Below the pieces are notes generated by a model that saw nothing but the letters and a program-made list of their open reading frames with translations, searched no databases and had not been told where the DNA came from. A program made the position numbers and the translations under genes. DNA of 64,000 nucleotides, taken from positions 124,001 through 188,000 of the forward strand of contig NZ_QQAW01000006.1 of NCBI RefSeq assembly GCF_003350405.1. The letters are read 5' to 3'. Of this stretch, positions 52,277-64,000 are shown piece by piece. Numbering within the stretch: position 1 is the first letter of the stretch; every line of letters starts with the position of its first letter. The DNA is from Gluconacetobacter liquefaciens (GTDB taxonomy: Bacteria; Pseudomonadota; Alphaproteobacteria; Acetobacterales; Acetobacteraceae).

Positions 52277-52920
52277 TATTGCGCCGGGATGCATTGCACG
52301 CTCCCCGCCCCGATCTCCCGGCATGTCTGGCGAGCGGGACACTGATATGTCTTCCACGCGCCTGCACGGAGAGGGTCGTTTCGGCCCTCGGTCGCCAGAA
52401 GACATAAAAAGAACACAGATATAAAGAATTTGTACCTGTAGAGCCCGATATGTGGCTGGTCGGCGTGCCTGTTCGTTTTACCGGCGGCGCTACCGAAGAA
52501 GAAAAGTACGGGGATCGCCTGAAGGCCGGCCAGACGATGCCAGACTGTCGTAAAGCGTTGCATGGCTGCCAATCGCCGGGAATGGGCAGCCAGATGCTGG
52601 CACCGCCGGTCAGGCTCGATGCCCGGGCGCGCATGGCTCCTGTCGGGCAAGCACGGCAGATGCCGTTTCAATAGGCGATAGTATGACTAAAATTTAGGCA
52701 AAACGTGATAGCCGGCAGTCGCTGGAAATCTGAAGTTCGTATTCCGCCATATACTTACAGCAGAAGACCATCGCCTGTTCCGACATTGACGCCTTGTTTA
52801 CGGGCGAGGGAAGCACATGAAACGCGCCGAACTATTTTTTCAACGCCGATATGGCTTTTCCCTCCGACCCGACCGCGTTACATCGTAATCCGATCATCGC
52901 ATTGGGGCACATATCTCTTC
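52277..52920. other. 644-bp non-coding region between tRNA-Arg and the PKS gene
   Basis: No convincing gene is seen on either strand. The region turns A/T-rich towards the PKS (around 52390-52430 and 52680-52700), unlike its surroundings, and should hold the PKS promoter. A small stem, GAGGGTCG-TTT-CGGCCCTC, lies near 52371-52389 without a T-run. No integrase gene or obvious repeat of the tRNA 3' end is visible here. The PKS frame is open from 52705, but the stretch before 52921 does not resemble a KS N-terminus. Confidence 0.5.
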
Positions 52921-55900
52921 ATGCATAACAGTTCGACGTCCGAGCCCAAGACCACTACTCGGGATGAGCCCATCGCCATCATCGGCGCATCCTGCCGCCT
53001 TCCCGGGGCGCCGGACGTTAACAGCCTGTGGCAGCTGCTGGACGAGGAACGCGAAAGCGTGCGGCCGATCCCGGAGAATCGCTTTCCATTACGGGATTAC
53101 TGGCATCCTCGTCGCGGCGAGACGGGCAAGTTCTATGCCACCCGTGCCTCCACCCTGGACGAGATTGAACTGTTCGATGCCGCCTTTTTCGGCATTTCGG
53201 CCCGCGAGGCCCGACAGATGGACCCGCAGCAGCGGCTGTTGCTGGAACTGGCGTGGGAAGCCCTGGAAGACGCCGGCACGACGGCGGAGCGCGTCGCGTC
53301 GGCCGGTGTGTATGTCGGTGCGTCGGGCCTGGAATATGCCAATCTGCGCCTGACCGACCCCTCGTCGGGCAATGCCTATTTCATGCCCGGCAACACGCTG
53401 AGCATCTTCTCCAATCGCGTGTCGTACGCGCTGGGCCTGCATGGGCCGAGCATGACCATCGATACGGCGTGCTCGTCGTCGCTGTTCGCCCTGCATGAGG
53501 CTTGCGAGGACCTGCGCGCCGGCCGGACGAGCGTGGCGCTGGTCGGTGGTGTCAGCATGCTGCTGACGCCCTATCCCTTCATCGGGTTCTGCGCGGCGAG
53601 CATGCTGTCCCCGACCGGGCGCTGCCACGCCTTCAGTGCCGATGCCGATGGCTATGTCCGTGGCGAGGGTGGCGTCATGCTGCTGCTCAAGCCGTTGTCG
53701 GCGGCGCGGCGGGATGGCGACGATGTCCGCGCGGTCATCATGGCCAGCGGGATCAATGCCGATGGACGGACGCCGGGGCTGACCTTCCCCAGCGCCCAGG
53801 CCCAGGCCGACCTGTTGCGCGAGGTTTATGATCGGGCCGGCGTCTCGCCGGATCAGATCGCCTTCGTGGAGGCCCACGGCACCGGCACCCAGGCGGGAGA
53901 TCCGGTCGAGACGACGGCGCTGGGCAAGGCCCTGGGCCAGTTGCGCGCAACGGCGCTGCCGATCGGCTCGATCAAGACCAATCTCGGCCATCTGGAACCG
54001 GCATCGGGCCTGGTCAGCATGTTGAAGGCCATGCTTGCGCTCCAGAACCGACGCCTGCCGGCCTCGCTGCATTGCGCGAACCCGAACCCGGCCATTCCCT
54101 TCGCCGAGCTTAATCTGGAAGTCGTCACCGAGGCGCGTCCGCTTGACGATGGCCCGCTGATTGCCGGTGTCAATAATTTCGGTTTCGGCGGCGCCAATGC
54201 CCATGTGGTTCTGGCCAGCGCGCCGATCGAACCGGCAGACGCGCCGGTCGCCGTGCCGGCGTCGGACGATGCTGTGCCATTGCTGCTATCCGCGCGCTCC
54301 GAGGCTGGTCTGGCCAGTCTTGCGCGGGTCTGGTCCACGCGGACCTGGACCGATTCCGAACTGCGCGGCCTGGCGACCCGACGCGCCCACCTGCCGCATC
54401 GTCTGGGTGTTCCTGGCGGGGATGCGGCGGAGATGCGCGCGGCGTTGGCGACGTGGGTGGAGACCCGCGCCCAGACCGATGTCGTCACCGGACAGGCCCT
54501 TGCACAGGCGCGCACCGTCTTTGTCTTTTCCGGCAATGGCAGCCAGTTCTCGGGCATGGGGCAGGATCTGCTGGAAATCAGCCCCGTTTTCGCCGCCGGG
54601 GTGGCGGAGGCGGATGTGGCATTGCGTCCGCATCTCGGCTGGTCGGTTCTGGAGGCGATGCGCTCGGGCGACTGGTCGGCCGATCCGGCCGATGTTGCGC
54701 AGCCGATGCTGTTTGCGTTCCAGATCGGCGTTCTGCGCGGGTTGGAACGGCAGGGACTCAAGGCCGACATCGTCGTTGGCCATAGCGTCGGGGAAATCGC
54801 GGCCGGGGTGCATGCCGGCATGCTGGAGATGGACGAGGCCGCGCGCATCGTTGCTCTACGCAGCCGCCATCAGGCGACCGCGCCCGGCGGTGGCATGATC
54901 GCGCTCCATGGCGATGCCGAAGAGGCACGGCGGCTTCTGGCCGAAGCCGGGCCGACGCTGGAGATTGCGGCCTTCAATGCACCCAACGCGCTGGCGGTGG
55001 CCGGCGAGGCCGACGCGCTGGACCGACTGGAGGCGGCGAAGGGCAGCTCGTCGCTGCTGATCCACCGCCTGAAGGTGGGGTATGCGTATCATAGCAGCCA
55101 CATGGACCGGATTGCCGAGGCGCTGATCCGCGATCTGGGTGCGATCACCGCACGCCAGCCTGAGCGGCTGATGATCTCGACCGTGACCAGCCAGCCTTTC
55201 ACGGTGCTGCCCGATGCCGATTACTGGTGGCGGAATGTCCGCGCGCCGGTGCTGTTTGCGGAATCGGTGCGTCAGGCGTCGGCCGAAGGGGGCTCGGTCT
55301 TTATCGAGATCAGCCCCCGTCCGGTCCTTCAACATTATCTGCGCGACATTCTGCGCGGTGGCGATACGCAGTCGCGCGTGATGCCGGCCGTGCCGGCCAA
55401 GATTACCACCGACCCGTTCCCGCGCACCGCGCTGGCATGTTTTGCGGCGGGCTGCGACATTCTGTCCGCGGCGCATTTCGCAGGACCTGCCCATGTGCGG
55501 GGCCTGCCCGGCGTGCAGTGGCAGCGCGAGCGGCATTGGTACGAACCGACCGAGGAAGCGCTGGCGGTGCTGTGGAACCAGCAGGGTACGCATCCCCTGC
55601 TGGGCGGCCATGGCAAGACGGATGCCAGCGAATGGACCGCGCATCTGGATGGAGCGGTGCAGCCCTGGCTGGCCGACCACAAGGTGGGCGAGACGATCGT
55701 TCTGGCGGCCGCCTGCCTGATCGAATTCGCCTTTACCGCCGCGCGGGCGACGTGGCCCGAGGCCGAGATTCTGGAATTGCGCGATTTCCAGATCCTGCGT
55801 CCGGTGATCATCGAACAGACGCAGTTGCGCGAGATTCGGGTGCGATTGGGGGCAGACGGCGCTGTGACCATCGACAGCCGGCCCCGGCTGTCGCAGGCGG

Positions 55901-58900
55901 TCTGGACGCGCCATGCCACCGCCCGTGCCGGCCTGTCGCCGGTCGCGCCTGCGGCCCTGCCGGCGGCCGCGACCGATACCGACATGACCGGTGATGCGCT
56001 CTATGCCATCGCGCGTGCTGCCGGACTGGCTTATGGACCAGCCTTCCGCCGTGTCGGTGCGATCTCGATGGCCGAGGGGCGGGTCGAGGCGACCCTGACG
56101 GGCGCGGCGCCGCTCGACGGGCTGACCCTGGACCCGACGGCGCTGGACGGGACTTTCCAGGCGCTGGTCGGGTTGGCGGTCAACCATGCCGATGCGGCCG
56201 AAGCGCCTCTGCCGCGCAAGTTCGGCGTGATCCGGCTGGACCTGTCGGCCGGGCCCGCTGCCCGGGGACAGGCTGCCGTTACAACGTCCGGCCCGCGCGA
56301 GACCGAGGCCGATATCGTGATGCTGGATGCTACCGGCCGCGCCGTGCTGTCGGCAACCGGCTGCTGGTTTACCCGCATGCCGGGCGAACGGCCGGTGCCG
56401 GTCGCCGAGCGCAGTTTCCACGAGATCTGGCTGCCGTCTCCCGTGGCGTCGGCTCCGCTGTCCGACGAGCGGTTCCTGGCGCTGCGCCCGGCCATGGAAA
56501 CGCCGGCCGGCGATGCGGACGACAAGGATGCCGGGCTGCTGGCTCATACGATCCTGTCTGGTCAGTCTTCGCCGACCGGGGATGCTCCGGATACCGCGCG
56601 GTTGTGGCAGACGCTTTTCCTCGACCTGCCGCAATGGCTGCCGGCGGCGTTGCTGCTGGCGTGGATCGACGAGCGGAAGAATGCGGCGGTCGCCGCCGAC
56701 GATGCGTTCCCCGACGTGGCGTTCCGGCAGTTGCTATCCGGCCGCAGTGTGGAACTGGCGGCCGAGCAGATCGCGACCACCATCGCGGCCTATGCGCAGG
56801 ACTGGCCGCAGGACCGCCCGCTGCGCGTGCTGGAACTGCACGCCGACCGCGCCGCGCTGACGCGGCAGCTTTTGCCGCGTCTGGCAGACCTGCCGGGCCG
56901 GCTGGACTACACGATCCTGGAGCCGAACCGCGAGCGGCAGGCGCGGTTGCGGCCGACCGTGCTGGCACATCTGCCCGGCATCGTCATGGCCGAGACCGTG
57001 CCGGCGGGCGCGTATGACGTGCTGGTTGCCTATGCACCCGGCCTGCACGGCCAGGTGCCGGCGGCGACGCTGGCCCATGCCGATCGTCTGGCGCCGGGCG
57101 GCCTGATCCTGGTGGTGGAAGCCGCCGAGGATGCCGGCTGGGCCACGTTGCGCGACCTGTCGCCCGAGCCGCTACTGACGATCGGAGCCTGGCGCGACCT
57201 GCCGCACCGCCTGCGCGCGGTGGCGGAAAGCGTGCCCGCCCAGGCGCCCTTCCCGCTCGCCCTGCTTGCGGCGGTCGCGATCGACGCAGAAGAAGCCGAG
57301 GTTGAAGCCGTCTCGGCGGCGCCGGTGATTCGCCTGTCGCATGCTCCCGGGCAGGCTGCCGGGGATGACACCGCGCGGACCGCCCAAGCGATGCTGGCCC
57401 TGGCCCGTGACGCCCGTGCCGCCGCCGAGGCCGGGGAGTGCCTCGCAATCGTGACCCGCGATGCGGCGACCACGCCGCATGAGGCCGCACGTGTCGCGCT
57501 GGGCCGGACGATCGCCAACGAGTTCCCTGCCCTGCGCTGTCGCCGGATCGACCTGTCCGCCGGCCTGTCGGAGACGGCGGTTGCGGCGGCGCTGGACGCG
57601 GAGCGCAATGCGACCGATGACGAGCGCGAAGTGCGCTGGACGGCAGACGGACGCTTTGTGCGCCGCCTGCGCGAGGGCCTGCCGGCCCGCGCCGCTGGTC
57701 CGAAGGAAGATGTTCGACTGATTCAGCCCGTGCCCGGCCCGCTGGACCGGCTGTGCTGGATGCCCGAGCCCAGGGTTGAACCCGGCCCGCGCGACGTGGT
57801 GATCGACGTGCAGGCCAGCGGCCTGAACTATCGCGATGTGCTGTCGGCCATCGGCATGTTGCCCGACGAATTGCTGCTGGACGGTTTTGCCGGTGCCACG
57901 CTGGGCATGGAATGCGCGGGGACCGTGCTGGCGGTGGGTGCGGAGGTGACCGACCTTGCCCCCGGCGACCGGGTGATGGCGCTGGCTGCCGCCGCCCATG
58001 CCAGCCGGGTGGTGACCGACCGGCGCAGCGTCTTCGCGCTGCCGGAATGGTTGTCTTTCGCGGCGGGTGCGACCATCCCCGTGACGTATCTGACCGTGCT
58101 CTATGCGCTGGAGACCGTTGGCCAGTTGCGGGCCGGCGAGACGATCCTGATCCATGGCGCGGCCGGCGGTGTCGGTCTGGCGGCCATTCAGTACGCCAGC
58201 CATGTCGGCGCACGCATCATCGCCACCGCCGGCTCGCCCGCCAAGCGGGCGGCCCTGCGCGAACTGGGGATCGAGACCGTGCTGGACAGCCGGTCGCTGC
58301 GCTTCGGGGCCGATGTGCTGGCCGCGACCGGTGGGCAGGGCGTGGATGTGGTGCTGAATGCCCTGAGCGGCGAGGCCATGGAGCGCAGCCTGGAACTGGT
58401 GCGCCCGTTCGGCCGCTTCCTGGAACTGGGCAAGCGCGACTTCCTGGCCAATACGCGCGTCGGCATCGGCCCGCTGCGACAGAATGTCAGCTACCATGCG
58501 ATCGACGTGGATGCGCTGGTGCGGCACCGGCCGGACCTGGTTTCGACCGTGACCGACCGCCTGCATACGCTGCTTGAGGACGGGGCGATCGGGCCGCTGC
58601 CCTATACCGCTTTCCCGGCCTCGGCCGCGACGGATGCGTTTGCGCTGATGCGGACCTCGGCGCATGTCGGCAAGATCGTGCTGACGATGGGGCCGGTGCA
58701 TGTGCCGCCCGCGCTGGATGTGCCGGCCGACCGCACCATGCTGGTGACGGGCGGGACCGGCGGCTTCGGCGCACGGGCCGCGCGGTGGCTCGTGACCCGT
58801 GGAGCGCGCCATCTGGTGCTGGTGAGCCGGCGTGGACCGGCGGCCGAAGGTGTGGCGGCGTTGCGCGAAACGCTGCTGGAGGCCGGCGCCCGGACCGTGG

Positions 58901-59943
58901 AGGTGCGGGCCTGCGACGTGACCGACCATGCGGCGCTGGCGGCGCTGATTGCCGAGATCCGCGCGACCATGCCGCCTCTGGGCGGGATCGTGCATGCCGC
59001 CGTCACGGTGGCGGACGGGCTGGTGGCGACGCTGTCCGAGGAACAGGTGACGGCTTCGGTGCAGGCCAAGCTGGCCGGCGCGCTGTCGCTGGACGCACTG
59101 ACGCGGGATGATCCGCTGGCGCTGTTCCTGGTCTTCTCGTCCGCCACCATCACGCTCGGCGCGCCGGGCCAGGGTGCCTATGTGGCGGCCAATGCGGCGG
59201 TCGAGGCGCTGATCCAGCGCCGGCGCGATGCGGGGCTGCCCGGTTGCGCCGTGCGCTGGGGGCCGATCGGCGATGCCGGCTTCCTGGAACGCAACGAAGC
59301 GGCGCGCGAGGCGCTGGACCGGCGGCTGGGCGCGCGCTCGATGCGCTCGATGGCCGCGCTGGATGCCCTGCCCGACCTGCTGGCTTCCTCCGACCCATGG
59401 CCGGTGCTGGCGGAAATGGACTGGCAGGCCACGGGCAGCCTGCCGATTCTGAGCGAACCGTTGTTCGGCGCCGTGGCGCGGCGCCGGGACGAGGACGGCG
59501 ATAGCGGCGACCTGATGAGCCTGCTGGCCACGGCCACCGAGGAACGGCGGGAAGAGATCGTCGCCGACCTGATCCTGGGTGAACTGACCCGCATCATGCA
59601 GACCGACCGCGAGGCCCTGCCCCTGGACCAGCCGCTGGCTGAACTGGGCATGGATTCGCTGACGGCGGTCGAACTGGCGCTGGGGCTGGAACGCCGGCTG
59701 GGCGTGTCGCTGCCCGGTTTTGCCTGGCAGGAAATGACGGTGCGGCGCGTTGCGCGCCAGGTCTCCACCCTGCTGGGCAACAAGGGGCAGGAAACCGCCG
59801 CCACCACGCCGGACGAGGCGGTGATGGCGCGCCATCTGGCCTCGGACGAGGAACGGAACGTGGTGGTCGAGGCCGGCGAGGTTGCCGAAGGGACCGGGAC
59901 GCCCGAGCCCGTGTTTTCGAACGAAGAAGAAGCGACTCGATGA
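52921..59943 (+). CDS. Iterative highly reducing type I polyketide synthase (RkpA-like)
   Basis: From the ATG at 52921 the protein has 2340 residues. KS (about 15-440): Cys184 in DTACSSS, His319 in EAHGTGT, His357 in KTNLGHLE. AT (about 535-830): Ser622 in GHSVGEI, and YAYH at the specificity motif. DH (about 890-1160): His920 in ADHKVGE, Asp1076 in LDPTALDGTF. Degenerate methyltransferase region (about 1230-1420). ER (about 1605-1925): GAAGGVGLAA near 1746. KR (about 1935-2170): TGGTGGFG, Ser and Tyr in VFSSATITLGAPGQGAYVAAN in pieces. ACP: Ser2246 in GMDSLTAVEL. There is no thioesterase. A full reducing loop means a saturated fatty-acid-like chain. It overlaps the alpha-oxoamine synthase gene (ATGA), the likely release enzyme. 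Confidence 0.92.
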   Translation: MHNSSTSEPKTTTRDEPIAIIGASCRLPGAPDVNSLWQLLDEERESVRPIPENRFPLRDYWHPRRGETGKFYATRASTLDEIELFDAAFFGISAREARQMDPQQRLLLELAWEALEDAGTTAERVASAGVYVGASGLEYANLRLTDPSSGNAYFMPGNTLSIFSNRVSYALGLHGPSMTIDTACSSSLFALHEACEDLRAGRTSVALVGGVSMLLTPYPFIGFCAASMLSPTGRCHAFSADADGYVRGEGGVMLLLKPLSAARRDGDDVRAVIMASGINADGRTPGLTFPSAQAQADLLREVYDRAGVSPDQIAFVEAHGTGTQAGDPVETTALGKALGQLRATALPIGSIKTNLGHLEPASGLVSMLKAMLALQNRRLPASLHCANPNPAIPFAELNLEVVTEARPLDDGPLIAGVNNFGFGGANAHVVLASAPIEPADAPVAVPASDDAVPLLLSARSEAGLASLARVWSTRTWTDSELRGLATRRAHLPHRLGVPGGDAAEMRAALATWVETRAQTDVVTGQALAQARTVFVFSGNGSQFSGMGQDLLEISPVFAAGVAEADVALRPHLGWSVLEAMRSGDWSADPADVAQPMLFAFQIGVLRGLERQGLKADIVVGHSVGEIAAGVHAGMLEMDEAARIVALRSRHQATAPGGGMIALHGDAEEARRLLAEAGPTLEIAAFNAPNALAVAGEADALDRLEAAKGSSSLLIHRLKVGYAYHSSHMDRIAEALIRDLGAITARQPERLMISTVTSQPFTVLPDADYWWRNVRAPVLFAESVRQASAEGGSVFIEISPRPVLQHYLRDILRGGDTQSRVMPAVPAKITTDPFPRTALACFAAGCDILSAAHFAGPAHVRGLPGVQWQRERHWYEPTEEALAVLWNQQGTHPLLGGHGKTDASEWTAHLDGAVQPWLADHKVGETIVLAAACLIEFAFTAARATWPEAEILELRDFQILRPVIIEQTQLREIRVRLGADGAVTIDSRPRLSQAVWTRHATARAGLSPVAPAALPAAATDTDMTGDALYAIARAAGLAYGPAFRRVGAISMAEGRVEATLTGAAPLDGLTLDPTALDGTFQALVGLAVNHADAAEAPLPRKFGVIRLDLSAGPAARGQAAVTTSGPRETEADIVMLDATGRAVLSATGCWFTRMPGERPVPVAERSFHEIWLPSPVASAPLSDERFLALRPAMETPAGDADDKDAGLLAHTILSGQSSPTGDAPDTARLWQTLFLDLPQWLPAALLLAWIDERKNAAVAADDAFPDVAFRQLLSGRSVELAAEQIATTIAAYAQDWPQDRPLRVLELHADRAALTRQLLPRLADLPGRLDYTILEPNRERQARLRPTVLAHLPGIVMAETVPAGAYDVLVAYAPGLHGQVPAATLAHADRLAPGGLILVVEAAEDAGWATLRDLSPEPLLTIGAWRDLPHRLRAVAESVPAQAPFPLALLAAVAIDAEEAEVEAVSAAPVIRLSHAPGQAAGDDTARTAQAMLALARDARAAAEAGECLAIVTRDAATTPHEAARVALGRTIANEFPALRCRRIDLSAGLSETAVAAALDAERNATDDEREVRWTADGRFVRRLREGLPARAAGPKEDVRLIQPVPGPLDRLCWMPEPRVEPGPRDVVIDVQASGLNYRDVLSAIGMLPDELLLDGFAGATLGMECAGTVLAVGAEVTDLAPGDRVMALAAAAHASRVVTDRRSVFALPEWLSFAAGATIPVTYLTVLYALETVGQLRAGETILIHGAAGGVGLAAIQYASHVGARIIATAGSPAKRAALRELGIETVLDSRSLRFGADVLAATGGQGVDVVLNALSGEAMERSLELVRPFGRFLELGKRDFLANTRVGIGPLRQNVSYHAIDVDALVRHRPDLVSTVTDRLHTLLEDGAIGPLPYTAFPASAATDAFALMRTSAHVGKIVLTMGPVHVPPALDVPADRTMLVTGGTGGFGARAARWLVTRGARHLVLVSRRGPAAEGVAALRETLLEAGARTVEVRACDVTDHAALAALIAEIRATMPPLGGIVHAAVTVADGLVATLSEEQVTASVQAKLAGALSLDALTRDDPLALFLVFSSATITLGAPGQGAYVAANAAVEALIQRRRDAGLPGCAVRWGPIGDAGFLERNEAAREALDRRLGARSMRSMAALDALPDLLASSDPWPVLAEMDWQATGSLPILSEPLFGAVARRRDEDGDSGDLMSLLATATEERREEIVADLILGELTRIMQTDREALPLDQPLAELGMDSLTAVELALGLERRLGVSLPGFAWQEMTVRRVARQVSTLLGNKGQETAATTPDEAVMARHLASDEERNVVVEAGEVAEGTGTPEPVFSNEEEATR

Positions 59944-61226
59944 CAGGACCGAAATTCGGCCGACGGCTGGGCGAACGCATCAAGCTGCTGGCCAGCCTGT
60001 CGGGCAGCGCACCGGCGGAGAGCAGCACGCGCGGCTGGTCGCTGCCGGGCGTGGAGGAAATGGAGTTCATCGCCAAGCGGGCGGCGGCGCTGGGCGTCTC
60101 CGACCCGTTCTTTCGCCAGCATGACGGGTTGGCCGCCGCCACGACCCTGATCGACGGGCGGGAATACATCAATTTCTCGTCCTACGATTATCTGGGGCTG
60201 AATGGTGATCCGCGCGTCATCGCCCAGGTGGAAAAGGCCCTGCACCGCTACGGCACGACGGTTTCCGCCAGCCGCATGGTCTCCGGCGAACGGCCGTTCC
60301 ATCGGGAACTGGAGCGGGCGCTGGCCGACTGGCATGGTGCCGAGGATTGCGTGGTGATGGTGTCGGGCCACGCGACCAACGTGACCACGCTGGCGCAGCT
60401 GATGCGGCCGGGCGACCTGATCATCCATGATGCGCTGGCTCATAACAGCCTGATCCAGGGCGCGATCCTGTCGGGCGCGCGGCGCATTGCGTTTCCGCAT
60501 AACGACGTGGCGGCGGCGCGCGAGCAATTATGGATGCACCGCAGGGCGCACAAGCGCGCGCTGCTGGTTCTTGAAGGCCATTACAGCATGGATGGCGACA
60601 TCCCTGATCTGGCGGCGTTCGTGGAGCTGGCCCGCGAGTTCGACTGCATGACGCTGGTGGACGAGGCGCACTCGACCGGCGTGCTGGGCGCGCGCGGGCA
60701 TGGCATTGCCGAAGAGACCGGTGTGCCGCCCGACTCGATCGATCTGTGGATGGGCACGCTCAGCAAGAGCCTGATCTCGTGCGGCGGCTACATTGCCGGC
60801 CGGGCCGATATCATTACCTACCTGAAGCGCACCGCCGCGGGCTTTGTCTATTCCGTCGGCCTGCCGCCGACCAATGCGGCGGCCTCGATGGCGGCGCTGG
60901 ACATTATCCGCGAGGAACCCTGGCGCATCGCGCGCCTGCGCGAGAACGCGACGCTGCTGCTGCGTCTGTTCCGCGAGGCCGGTTTCGATACCGGGACCTC
61001 GGAAGGCTACGGCATCGTGCCGCTGGTCACCGGCAGTTCGCTGCTGGCCGGCCGGCTGTCGCAGGCGCTGTTCGAACGCGGGCTGAATGTCCAGCCCATC
61101 ATCCACCCGGCCGTGCCGGAGAAGGCGGCCCGGCTGCGCTTCTTCGTCAGCGCCTCACACACGTCCGGGCAGATCGAGCAGACGGTCTCGATCGTGACTC
61201 AGGCGCTGCGCGCCCTGTCGGAATAG
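59940..61226 (+). CDS. Alpha-oxoamine synthase (AONS/SPT family, RkpG-like)
   Basis: The 428-residue PLP enzyme belongs to the family of 8-amino-7-oxononanoate synthase, 2-amino-3-ketobutyrate ligase and serine palmitoyltransferase, which condense an amino acid with an acyl thioester with loss of CO2. NFSSYDYLGLNGDPRV, SRMVSGERPFHRELE, LVDEAHSTGVLG and the PLP Lys in GTLSKSLISCGGYI are intact. It has an extra N-terminal stretch of about 55 residues. Translational coupling to a thioesterase-less PKS suggests that it releases the polyketide chain as an amino-ketone. The amino acid used cannot be told. A biotin role is unlikely, as no other bio genes are near. Confidence 0.88.
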   Translation: MTGPKFGRRLGERIKLLASLSGSAPAESSTRGWSLPGVEEMEFIAKRAAALGVSDPFFRQHDGLAAATTLIDGREYINFSSYDYLGLNGDPRVIAQVEKALHRYGTTVSASRMVSGERPFHRELERALADWHGAEDCVVMVSGHATNVTTLAQLMRPGDLIIHDALAHNSLIQGAILSGARRIAFPHNDVAAAREQLWMHRRAHKRALLVLEGHYSMDGDIPDLAAFVELAREFDCMTLVDEAHSTGVLGARGHGIAEETGVPPDSIDLWMGTLSKSLISCGGYIAGRADIITYLKRTAAGFVYSVGLPPTNAAASMAALDIIREEPWRIARLRENATLLLRLFREAGFDTGTSEGYGIVPLVTGSSLLAGRLSQALFERGLNVQPIIHPAVPEKAARLRFFVSASHTSGQIEQTVSIVTQALRALSE

Positions 61227-62419
61227 GCTGACAATATCCGCCGCACCGAGCCCTCGACCGCGAGGGCTCGCCCCTCGGGGGTGAAGAAATCGCCTTCGAC
61301 CAGGACTTCCTGGATCAGCATGCGGCAGAACGCATCGAGCAGTTCGGCATCGGGCCTGCTGGCCTCGCGCCAGAAGAGATCCAGCGGTTCCTGGAACGTC
61401 AAGCCCGGAACGTCGTAGATCGCTTCGCCCAGAATCTTGACCGGGCGGTTGCGCCGCAGGGCGAGCAGCCCGACCGTGCTGTTGACCGTGACGATCCCTT
61501 CGCTGGCGTCCAGCACGGGTTCGAGCAGGCCCTCGGCCATGAAATAGACCCGTGCCGCAATGCCCAGAGCGCGCGCGCGCTGGGTGATCAGCCCTTCCCA
61601 GTCCATCAGGCGCGGATCGAGCGGATGGCGGCGGACGACCAGGGAGAGCGTGTCGGGCGCATGCGCGGCGAAGGAGGCCAGGATCTGTTCCAGTGCCTCG
61701 GCCATGCCGCGAAACGGCGAATGGACCCGCAACTGGTAGTCGCCATCCAGTTGCATCGGCACCAGCATGAACGGCCCCTGGGGCAGGATCGCGTCCTTGG
61801 GCTTGCGCACAAGGCGCCCCGTCCAGTCCCGCAGCCACCCTGCATATTCCACGAACGGACTGACCGCCGCATGGAAACGCGCGTGGGGAAACAGCGCCGT
61901 CATGGCCACGCGCAGGCCGTGATAGGAGACATCGTAGACCGCGCGCCGCAGGAAATCGGAATGAGGCTCGTAATGCATGGGGGGCCACGGTGCCTGGCCC
62001 CGTTCGCGGATATGCGCGGCATCGCGCGGCAGGGCCGAAAAGCCGTTGACGCCATGGGGCTCCAGCGTGATCCAGCCGGGCCTGAGATAGCCTTCCTCGA
62101 ACACCCAGATGGCGATGCCGTGCGCGCGCGCGATTTCGGTTGCCACGAGATGAATCGGGCGGCAGTCGCCGAACAGGATGATCGCATCCGGCTTGTCGGC
62201 GGCGATGATCTTTTCGAGGAAGGCAGGCAGGGCGCGCTCGCGCCCGCGAAACCATGTGACATCGTGCGAAAAGACGACGTCGCCGCCATTGAAAGCAATG
62301 CGGCGGACATGATGGCCGGCAGCCCGGAGCGCAATCGCCAGTTCGGAAAAGAACGGCGTGGCATTCCCTTGCAGCATCAGAAAACTTAGCAAACCGTTCC
62401 CACCTTCCCCATCCGTCAC
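61199..62419 (-). CDS. kpsS: Capsule polysaccharide biosynthesis protein KpsS (RkpJ-like)
   Basis: The 406-residue protein (Capsule_synth family) contains LMLQGNATPFFSELAIAL, RRIAFNGGDVVF, VFEEGYLRPGWITLEPHGVNG in pieces, FMLVPMQLDGDYQLRVHSPF, VVRRHPLDPR and VTVNSTVGLLAL. KpsS starts the beta-Kdo linker on the lipid anchor of group 2 type capsules; KpsC extends it. The start is a GTG at 62419 with a weak site; a TTG about 8 codons later after GGAAGGTGGG is possible. Its 3' end overlaps the convergent alpha-oxoamine synthase gene by 28 bp. Confidence 0.9.
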   Translation of the reverse strand: MTDGEGGNGLLSFLMLQGNATPFFSELAIALRAAGHHVRRIAFNGGDVVFSHDVTWFRGRERALPAFLEKIIAADKPDAIILFGDCRPIHLVATEIARAHGIAIWVFEEGYLRPGWITLEPHGVNGFSALPRDAAHIRERGQAPWPPMHYEPHSDFLRRAVYDVSYHGLRVAMTALFPHARFHAAVSPFVEYAGWLRDWTGRLVRKPKDAILPQGPFMLVPMQLDGDYQLRVHSPFRGMAEALEQILASFAAHAPDTLSLVVRRHPLDPRLMDWEGLITQRARALGIAARVYFMAEGLLEPVLDASEGIVTVNSTVGLLALRRNRPVKILGEAIYDVPGLTFQEPLDLFWREASRPDAELLDAFCRMLIQEVLVEGDFFTPEGRALAVEGSVRRILSAYSDRARSA

Positions 62420-62454
62420 ATGAACGCCCCATGGCGCGCCTGTCCGCGATACCG

Positions 62455-63699
62455 CTATGGCCCGTTTCCGCAGTCGATTACGGCCAGGGCGGCGAGGCCG
62501 GCCACCACCTGGGTCGGCCAGTCGGCGAATGACGGGGGTGCCTGGGCGGCCGCCCCCCTGTCATGCCCGCACCGTTCGCGGATCGCATGCCGCCAGCCGG
62601 GGCCGTCCAGAGGGTCGAGATAGACCGGCAGGTCCCCGGCGATTTCGCGAAAGACCGGCAGGTCGCTGCACAGGCACGGAACGCCCATTGCCAATGCTTC
62701 CAGCAGCGGAAGGCCGAACCCTTCGGCAAATGACGGGAACAGCAGCGCACGCGCACCCCGGACCAGCCCCGCCACGGCCTGATCGGATAACGTGGCATGT
62801 TCGTGTACGACCCCCTGCAAGGCGGGGCATCGTTCGATCATGTCCAGGATGTTTTCGTTTTCCCATCCGCGTCGGCCGATGATCACCAGATGCGGCAGGG
62901 GCGTGGCGCCGCCCTCCATCGCCATCTGGCGCCACAGATTCAGCAGCAGAAGGTGGTTCTTGCGCGGCTCGATCGTGCCCAGGATCACGAAATAAGGGGC
63001 GTCGGGCACCAGATTGCCCACCGATGCCGGAACATTGGATGGGACAAGGCAACCGTGATGCACAACGCCGACCGGCGGACAATGCCCGTGGGGCGCCAGA
63101 TAATCCCGCAATGCCTCATCGACCGGCCGGGAGGGTACGATCACGCGCTCCGCCAGCCGCCCCACGGTATCCATGCGCCGGCGATGGCGGTCGGGTTCGG
63201 TCGGGCGGGCATATTCGGGGTATTCGATCGGGATCAGGTCGTGGACCATGACCGCCATCGTGGCATCGGCCCGTTTCAGAAAAACCTCGATCACGTCGTC
63301 GCGCATCAGGTGATGATGCGAAAGCAGCAGATAGGTCCGGCGGTGTTTCGCACGGCCAGCGGCCCCGAGGGCCGCAGCCTGCAACAGCAGCCCGGCCAGC
63401 AGCGACGCCGTGCGCGACGGCCGCGTGCCGCCCGCCCAGGCCCGTGCGAGGATGCGCAGGAAACGATCGGTCAGCCGGCGCGGCAGGAGGCCGATGCGCC
63501 CGACCGGATGAAAGGCCACGAACATGACCTGGGACGCGGGAAAGCGCATGAGATACAGCGCATATTCCAGTTCCACACGGTCGATCCCCGTCGGCACGGC
63601 GCTGCCGGCGCGCGACAGCAGACGGGAGATATCCATCAGAACCGGACGGGGCAGTATCTCGGCCGGCCGTCGCGAACCGTGCACCACACTGCCGCTCAT
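62455..63699 (-). CDS. Glycosyltransferase family 4
   Basis: The 414-residue protein has the two-domain GT-B layout: MVHDLIPIEYPEY in the N-terminal half, then YFVILGTIEPRKNHLLLLNLW at the domain junction and SFAEGFGLPLLEALAMGVPCLCSDLPVFRE in pieces, with the Glu-x7-Glu donor-sugar motif. This resembles mannosyl- and other hexosyltransferases of surface polysaccharides. The ATG at 63699 overlaps the kpsC stop (ATGA), so it is coupled to kpsC; open frame further upstream lies within kpsC. It probably adds a sugar to the capsule repeat or linker. Confidence 0.88.
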   Translation of the reverse strand: MSGSVVHGSRRPAEILPRPVLMDISRLLSRAGSAVPTGIDRVELEYALYLMRFPASQVMFVAFHPVGRIGLLPRRLTDRFLRILARAWAGGTRPSRTASLLAGLLLQAAALGAAGRAKHRRTYLLLSHHHLMRDDVIEVFLKRADATMAVMVHDLIPIEYPEYARPTEPDRHRRRMDTVGRLAERVIVPSRPVDEALRDYLAPHGHCPPVGVVHHGCLVPSNVPASVGNLVPDAPYFVILGTIEPRKNHLLLLNLWRQMAMEGGATPLPHLVIIGRRGWENENILDMIERCPALQGVVHEHATLSDQAVAGLVRGARALLFPSFAEGFGLPLLEALAMGVPCLCSDLPVFREIAGDLPVYLDPLDGPGWRHAIRERCGHDRGAAAQAPPSFADWPTQVVAGLAALAVIDCGNGP

Positions 63700-64000
63700 G
63701 CGGGGCGGGCCGACCGGACGCGCGCCCATGCCTTGCGCAGCGCCGTCTGCGCGGCCAGCGCGCGCATCCATGGCGTGGGGCGCCACAGGCCGGGGGTTTG
63801 CAGACGGTCGATCAGAACTTCCGGGCCGCAGGGCAGTCGCGTAACCGGGTCGAGATAACGCGGAAACAGAATCAGCACTCCGGCAACGAGGTCTTCCAGG
63901 GTCAGGCGCCGTGTCCGGCGTGCGGGAACATCCCCCAGGTCGACCGTCAGCCCCCACCCCGCATAGAACGGCGCGCCATAGGTCACAACCCGCCGTCCGC
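63696..64000 (-). CDS. kpsC: Capsule polysaccharide biosynthesis protein KpsC, C-terminal fragment (5' end off the window)
   Basis: About 101 codons are open from the window edge to the stop at 63696. They read GRRVVTYGAPFYAGWGLT near the edge, then RRTRRLTLEDLVAGVLILFPRYLDP, PEVLIDRL and a basic C-terminus. This is the end of the second glycosyltransferase module of KpsC, a dual beta-Kdo transferase that extends the Kdo linker of lipid-anchored capsules. No start belongs to it in the window. It leads a run kpsC, GT4, kpsS. Confidence 0.85.
   Translation of the reverse strand, partial: GRRVVTYGAPFYAGWGLTVDLGDVPARRTRRLTLEDLVAGVLILFPRYLDPVTRLPCGPEVLIDRLQTPGLWRPTPWMRALAAQTALRKAWARVRSARPA

Follow-up and report, generated by a model that had tools for sequence, protein, structure and literature searches.

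Kinship of a polyketide synthase and an alpha-oxoamine synthase of Gluconacetobacter liquefaciens with RkpA and RkpG, and a candidate lipid for a Kdo-linked capsule

The closest described counterpart of the genes studied here is the rkp-1 cluster (rkpA-G-H-I-J) for the K-antigen capsule of Sinorhizobium meliloti, whose mutants are reported in a review to be deficient in capsular polysaccharide (KPS) and which, by the same account, is needed in strain 1021 for secretion of poly-Kdo (Kdo, 3-deoxy-D-manno-oct-2-ulosonic acid) (PMC4881576). In the rhizobial literature, RkpA and RkpG have long been taken to make a lipid; according to a genome paper, a lipophilic molecule, possibly a carrier or anchor, seems to be specified by rkpA together with rkpGHIJ (PMC3557214). 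The wcb and rkp clusters, called orthologous in a paper on a sponge PKS, both combine a type I polyketide synthase (PKS; wcbR/rkpA) with capsule genes (PMC3908369). In Escherichia coli, KpsS starts on (lyso)phosphatidylglycerol ((lyso)PG) (PMC10148158 and PMC11041684). The open-licence literature, as far as excerpts of it go, yielded no report of the structure of an RkpA/RkpG lipid and no paper presenting RkpI as a phosphoglycerol transferase, and the strings "rkp" and "sphingo" occur nowhere in the main text of a 2025 review on capsule attachment (PMC12220298). Here, we analyzed a 64,000-nucleotide stretch of Gluconacetobacter liquefaciens (positions 124,001 to 188,000 of contig NZ_QQAW01000006.1), hereafter the window, toward the end of which a PKS and an alpha-oxoamine synthase (AONS) face capsule genes.

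By its sequence, this locus is a well-formed member of the known RkpA/RkpG class, in a rearranged cluster. We lean toward the view that the pair is an RkpA-RkpG module and that its product, a long-chain 2-amino-3-ketone lipid, would serve as the membrane end of a Kdo-linked capsule. The genes on which this view draws, in the window and elsewhere in the genome, are as follows.

52921..59943, plus strand: mono-modular type I PKS of the RkpA/WcbR class, without thioesterase (ORF search, Pfam, motifs, and RkpA homology)
59940..61226, plus strand: AONS, a pyridoxal phosphate (PLP) enzyme of the RkpG class, 428 residues (Pfam, tree, and RkpG homology)
61199..62419, minus strand: KpsS-type beta-Kdo transferase homologue, convergent with the AONS gene (PF05159, 251 bits)
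62455..63699, minus strand: family 4 glycosyltransferase (GT4) (Pfam; start codon picked by an ATGA overlap with the kpsC stop)
63696..64000, minus strand: 3' end of kpsC, of which the last ~100 codons are in the window (PF05159)
L038:1697-3373, up to 65372 in window numbering: whole kpsC gene (558 residues, PF05159)
C6:192023-193519, plus strand: one strong RkpI homologue, ~4 kb past the window end
C3:405901-409978, another contig of the same genome: KpsT, KpsM, KpsE, and KpsD together
C4:3874-5163: canonical serine palmitoyltransferase (SPT) (NF047599, 635 bits against a cut-off of 500)

A reading made from the sequence alone had described a fully reducing type I PKS lacking a thioesterase, coupled by an ATGA overlap to an AONS and facing kpsC-GT4-kpsS, and this picture holds. 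Pfam detects ketosynthase (KS), acyltransferase (AT), dehydratase (DH), enoylreductase (ER), ketoreductase (KR), and acyl carrier protein (ACP) domains, the PKS end (stop at 59943) and the AONS start (59940) share the ATGA, and the facing genes are found on the minus strand, kpsC lying mostly beyond the window. The RkpI gene further on was out of sight of that reading. The PKS open reading frame (ORF) is open from 52705 to 59943 on the plus strand, giving 2412 residues from a GTG start or 2340 from the ATG at 52921, and the 3' ends of the AONS gene and kpsS overlap by 28 bases (61199-61226). Among named relatives, members of Gluconacetobacter are the closest (the AONS of G. dulcium is 98% identical), and dN/dS values of 0.13-0.20 relative to G. 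diazotrophicus indicate purifying selection on the locus genes.

Like S. meliloti rkp-1, the Gluconacetobacter locus has a PKS of the same domain order and a coupled AONS, together with a KpsS homologue (39%), an RkpI homologue (26-30%), and a polysaccharide export gene in the genome; the KpsS (RkpJ) and RkpI homologues are in the same region as the pair. Unlike in rkp-1, the pair faces kpsS instead of leading it, the GT4 gene and kpsC are part of one convergent run with kpsS, RkpI follows behind kpsC at a distance of ~7 kb from the AONS, and no RkpH-type short-chain dehydrogenase/reductase (SDR) is linked. The PKS is likened to the WcbR type of Burkholderiales wcb capsule clusters through a published description (PMC3908369). 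Alongside this, a relative on a Caballeronia plasmid differs by an extra LpxC-like deacetylase gene between PKS and AONS (L137:10904-11830); such a gene also occurs there in L219, and in both loci it adjoins an RkpI/LtaS-like gene. The genome shares KpsS, KpsC, and KpsTMED homologues with the E. coli group 2 capsule system, but E. coli uses (lyso)PG (PMC10148158), and the window KpsS reaches only 231 bits against the cut-off of 600 of the E. coli-type KpsS model NF050054. With canonical bacterial SPT, finally, the AONS has in common its PLP-dependent chemistry, the conserved Lys276, Asp241, and His244, and its best PDB matches, which are SPTs; it differs in falling into a separate clade and in the dedicated PKS from which its acyl chain would come.

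The domain order of the PKS is KS-AT-DH-degenerate methyltransferase (MT)-ER-KR-ACP, with one ACP and no thioesterase domain found by Pfam. Counting from the GTG at 52705 (P0001 numbering), the motif residues present, whose catalytic roles we assume, are Cys256, His391, and His429 in KS, Ser694 in AT, His992 and Asp1148 in DH, Tyr2159 in KR, and Ser2318 in ACP. The same motifs predominate in 89 PKS sequences, the window's among them, for which the eight commonest variants per motif were listed. The DH-ER interval resembles an MT remnant devoid of the glycine-rich S-adenosylmethionine (SAM) motif, which is lost in the window PKS and in the commonest variants of the 89, and a methyl-branched product was therefore rejected. 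Taken together, the domain set and the remnant suggest that the product chain is probably fully reduced and unbranched. Identity to S. meliloti RkpA is 37% over 1200 residues and 43% over 737, and we assign the PKS to the RkpA/WcbR class by domain order and RkpA homology. Several secondary-metabolite models also match it, every one below cut-off.

The AONS is 48% identical to S. meliloti RkpG over 405 residues. In a tree of 36 rows hand-picked from the collected loci, with three reference rows that are all long branches, it groups with RkpG and apart from 5-aminolevulinate synthase (ALAS), SPT, and BioF (98/97). The homology to RkpA and RkpG noted in the sequence-only reading is thus supported. 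Its clade also contains betaproteobacterial, planctomycete, cyanobacterial, and actinobacterial rows, as well as three capsule-linked, PKS-free rows, two of which have identical sequence. The AONS reaches no NCBIfam equivalog cut-off, its scores against the SPT models being 303/640, 270/500, and 219/670 bits; CAI-1 synthase is also among its PDB matches, and it scores 182 bits against the autoinducer synthase model cut-off of 428. Lys276, Asp241, and His244 are found in all 30 PKS-linked AONS rows examined, as is Trp270, which is Ile or Val in the six other rows. Is this enzyme simply the genome's SPT, ALAS, or BioF? We rejected this because each of these is a separate gene: the canonical SPT listed above, an ALAS (539 bits, cut-off 339), and a BioF-like gene (424 bits, just below the cut-off of 426), which makes the window AONS a fourth such enzyme. 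Since the canonical SPT lies elsewhere, the pair would make an additional amino-lipid, in keeping with the earlier proposal of one beside conventional sphingolipids.

The coupling of PKS and AONS recurs among relatives. We examined 80 named loci, the 80 best among 203 relatives from named genomes, which tilts the set toward close kin. A PKS ketosynthase match is present in 75 of them; of the five without one, four have an AONS start no more than 3.1 kb from the end of a contig, and the last is the planctomycete L122. With longest-ORF starts, the AONS overlaps the PKS ORF or begins at most 262 bases after it in 74/80 loci: the overlap is exactly 4 bases in 44 and longer in 22, the gap is below 100 bases in 6, and 2 have gaps of 109 and 262 bases, while 6 have no long PKS ORF. 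In Planktothrix and Streptomyces, the two are a single fused ORF (L138:3569-11167 and L139:6302-11134), and these two loci show no KpsS, KpsC, or RkpI match. The tight spacing and the fused ORFs support direct transfer of the chain from PKS to AONS.

We then turn to the link with capsule genes, for which the sequence-only reading had suggested a survey of Acetobacteraceae. In 249 genomes of this family, drawn evenly from a larger group, the AONS (cut-off E <= 1e-65) is found in 80 and PF05159 in 97, and the two coincide in 67 (odds ratio 24, P = 5e-24); hence, a KpsC/KpsS-family gene is present in 67/80 AONS-positive genomes versus 30/169 AONS-negative ones. A distance count based on the 95 strongest PF05159 matches places at least 56 of the 80 family AONS within 6 kb of such a match, downstream in all 56, on the same strand in 46 and on the opposite strand in 10, six of these ten being genomes of the genus. 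This proximity, together with the dN/dS values, argues that the juxtaposition is not due to chance. A phylum sample of 398 genomes (AONS cut-off E <= 1e-100) gives a similar result, with the AONS in 17, PF05159 in 80, and both in 15 (P = 1e-9). KpsS or KpsC lies inside 30 of the 80 named loci, and some capsule gene (KpsS, KpsC, KpsMTED, or RkpI) inside 45; for the 50 loci without KpsS/KpsC, PF05159 occurs elsewhere in 44 of the genomes, and kpsM/T/E-like genes were seen by eye in betaproteobacterial loci among them. Three genomes from a single family that lies outside the class (L206, L208, and L209) have PKS, AONS, SDR, RkpI, KpsS, and KpsC in a stretch of 20 kb or less, and the AONS is present in six genus genomes among the matches listed. 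In the complete genome of G. diazotrophicus PA1 5 (L062), PKS, AONS, KpsS, KpsC, and RkpI are all together.

There are also PKS-free clusters. Acidisoma (L140:8900-19022, on the same replicon as L048) and genome G010 (L047) have an AONS of the window AONS's clade, an SDR, a fatty acid hydroxylase homologue, RkpI, KpsS, and KpsC, and no PKS was found in either locus. That the capsule link persists without a PKS suggests that the capsule needs an amino-lipid and not a polyketide. Among 16 loci from family genomes with PF05159 and without the AONS, KpsC, KpsS, and RkpI occur together in 13, and 6 have a fatty-acid-hydroxylase-like ORF, confirmed by Pfam in L153 only. In that AONS-free locus (L153:7707-14902, genome G228), KpsC, KpsS, GT4-like, and fatty acid hydroxylase ORFs stand in a row with RkpI divergent, and a possible source of the capsule lipid in that genome is ordinary sphingolipid synthesis.

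A KpsS tree was built from 71 hand-picked rows (37 from PKS-AONS genomes, 2 with an AONS but no PKS, and 32 without an AONS), leaving out E. coli KpsS. The PKS-AONS label needs 2 changes on it, compared to a mean of 24 when shuffled. All 37 PKS-AONS rows, with 20 others, are on one side of a branch supported at 99/96, and 14 AONS-free rows are on the opposite side. The window row joins other Gluconacetobacter rows (100/98) at a fork that the tree does not resolve; measured by path, the rows from other genera that come nearest to it are from Neoroseomonas PKS-AONS genomes. KpsS from family genomes without the pair forms a separate group of 18 rows (94/95) that includes both PKS-free AONS rows, and a single clade of all PKS-AONS rows is neither established nor rejected, with an approximately unbiased test value (p-AU) of 0.158. 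The tree thus fits a KpsS adapted to its acceptor, with kinship accounting for part of the pattern.

RkpI is a PF00884 protein, as judged by Pfam on S. meliloti RkpI and three other homologues, and it meets no NCBIfam cut-off. When its profile was compared with solved structures, the best matches included GacH (E 3e-27), LtaP (E 3e-17), and LtaS (E 1e-9); the seven top-scoring chains are glycerol-phosphate transferases, followed weakly by one uncharacterised protein and three sulfatases. E228, T269, H384, D436, and H437 are invariant in 13 rows and in register with GacH, and what we take to be the Thr nucleophile and metal-binding positions are in register with GacH/LtaP. Hydropathy gives five segments for the protein of the window's genome, whereas three relatives have four at that threshold; charge counts favour neither side of the membrane. 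Catalytic domains of the LtaS type are outside the cell membrane, a location that would conflict with RkpI making an acceptor for cytoplasmic KpsS.

From these elements, a pathway can be proposed. The PKS, whose domains are observed, would act iteratively and build a fully reduced, probably unbranched acyl chain on its own ACP. The AONS would release this chain through decarboxylative condensation onto an amino acid, as expected of its enzyme class, yielding a long-chain 2-amino-3-ketone, which a reductase encoded elsewhere in the genome would convert into a sphingoid-like amino-alcohol; in 18/80 named relatives, an RkpH-like SDR is found in the same locus. Co-occurrence, synteny, and the published rkp-1 genetics suggest that this lipid would form the membrane end of a Kdo-linked capsule, either as its anchor or as a carrier for export; KpsS and KpsC would start that capsule, and KpsTMED would export it. 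More tentatively, the LtaS/GacH-like RkpI probably adds phosphoglycerol to the lipid or to the exported glycolipid. The chemical idea put forward from the sequence alone is therefore plausible and fits the genes, the notion of a lipid carrier being already in print for rhizobia; release of the PKS chain by an AONS, a phosphoglycerol-transferase-like RkpI, and PKS-free versions are new details on this old hypothesis. A more specific scheme, which we regard as unlikely, is that a polyketide-derived sphingoid base with a phosphoglycerol head set by RkpI would be a single-chain mimic of lyso-phosphatidylglycerol, glycosylated by an adapted KpsS and lying under the capsule. Gram-negative capsules would then have a third class of anchor, next to (lyso)PG and the Vi-type lipid, and its acyl chain would come from a PKS in Gluconacetobacter and rhizobia but from fatty acid synthase in Acidisoma.

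Other explanations have to be weighed against an amino-lipid at the membrane end of the capsule. The anchor could be ordinary (lyso)PG as in E. coli, with the PKS-AONS lipid a free or otherwise decorated membrane amino-lipid made near surface-polysaccharide genes. We consider this credible, if unlikely: E. coli KpsS does act on (lyso)PG (PMC10148158 and PMC11041684), PF05159 occurs without the AONS in 30/97 family genomes and the AONS without PF05159 in 13/80, and there are PKS-AONS-SDR trios with no adjoining Kps genes (L054 and L226, the latter with a PKS seen by eye only). It is opposed by the strong association of the pair with kpsS, in occurrence and in synteny, across several classes, by the KPS deficiency of rkp-1 mutants (PMC4881576), and by the position of all 37 PKS-AONS rows on one side of the 99/96 branch of the KpsS tree, from which the E. 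coli protein was left out. A variant of our preferred reading is rather unlikely: here the lipid would carry the polysaccharide during export, or be an acyl group added to it or to the linker, and would be gone from the mature capsule. While the rhizobial literature speaks of a carrier or anchor (PMC3557214 and PMC4881576), and whether the inner membrane retains the lipid is an open question for well-studied systems too (PMC11041684), the E. coli KpsS/KpsC pathway builds on a glycolipid terminus that is retained on the polysaccharide (PMC10148158). Much the least probable is a product with no role in the capsule, a small amino-ketone that is secreted or acts as a signal (a secondary metabolite or CqsA-like autoinducer). 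PKS-AONS release is known for fungal fumonisin-type chains, and the CAI-1 synthase and sub-cut-off secondary-metabolite matches point the same way, but capsule genes adjoin the pair in 45/80 named loci, the AONS is spread over the six genus genomes listed, and it is far from the autoinducer synthase cut-off. Moreover, no other recurring pathway was noticed beside the pair, although this was not tested systematically (ORF clustering at 50 loci gave mostly wrong-frame ORFs).

Returning to the capsule-lipid reading, several observations weigh against it. Neither the P values nor the label shuffles take shared descent into account. No RkpH-type SDR match exists in the window or flanking L038-L040; the best match in the genome (34% over residues 4-186 of 267) lies at an unlinked site and is not a clear orthologue. 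RkpI (E <= 1e-20) was also tried, and rejected, as a specific partner of the pair: of the 50/249 family genomes that have it, 46 have PF05159 and 21 the AONS, so it follows Kps regardless of the AONS and does not single out a PKS-AONS lipid. Family genomes with KpsC/KpsS but not the pair (the 30/97 above) show that it is not required for every such capsule. No capsule gene is present in the flanking DNA examined around the pair in 35/80 named loci, with PF05159 elsewhere in 33 of these genomes, and PF05159 is absent from 6/80 named genomes. In four of these six, the locus does contain KpsMTED-like or RkpI genes (L067, L070, L078, and L124), whereas L076 and L122 show no capsule gene there. Eight of the 13 AONS-positive family genomes without PF05159 are at least 96% complete. 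We inspected the neighbourhoods in 12 of the 13 and found KpsE/KpsT-like genes close by in G171, an SDR within the locus in G056, G096, G128, and G178, and short contigs in G031 and G128; in the remaining one, G177, the AONS contig also bears an RkpI match. Since G031, G056, G096, and G203 are 99-100% complete, the absence of PF05159 from them may be real. The two of 17 AONS genomes in the phylum sample that have no PF05159 are G466, only 71% complete, and G310, which has two PKS-AONS pairs, one beside KpsE/KpsT-like genes. An AONS subclade (L054, L055, L214, and L215, the last two from G310) has no adjoining KpsS/KpsC and may serve another surface polysaccharide. The sequence-only reading had named, as cases that would speak against it, genomes in which the pair occurs without Kps/Rkp genes and with a different linked pathway: a minority does have the pair without Kps genes, some of them near-complete, but no different linked pathway was found there.

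If a sphingoid-type anchor proves true, it would be a new anchor chemistry for Kdo-linked capsules of alpha-, beta-, and gammaproteobacteria. The old question becomes testable in a tractable organism, the plant endophyte G. diazotrophicus PA1 5.

A few further observations concern individual loci. Behind RkpI in the window's genome, there are rmlB-, rmlA-, and rmlD-like genes and a PfkB-cytidylyltransferase (HldE-like) gene (L038:7961-12963). G. tumulisoli (L065) has the PKS-AONS pair, with a KpsS match that is divergent and on the strand opposite to that in sister species, and no KpsC or RkpI match in the 10 kb flank. Finally, the S. meliloti rkp-1 genes that we used (L136, CP090106.1) are on a 3.7 Mb record titled pSymB, whose gene table lacks RkpI; a paper puts rkp-1 on the chromosome, and the record is probably mislabelled.

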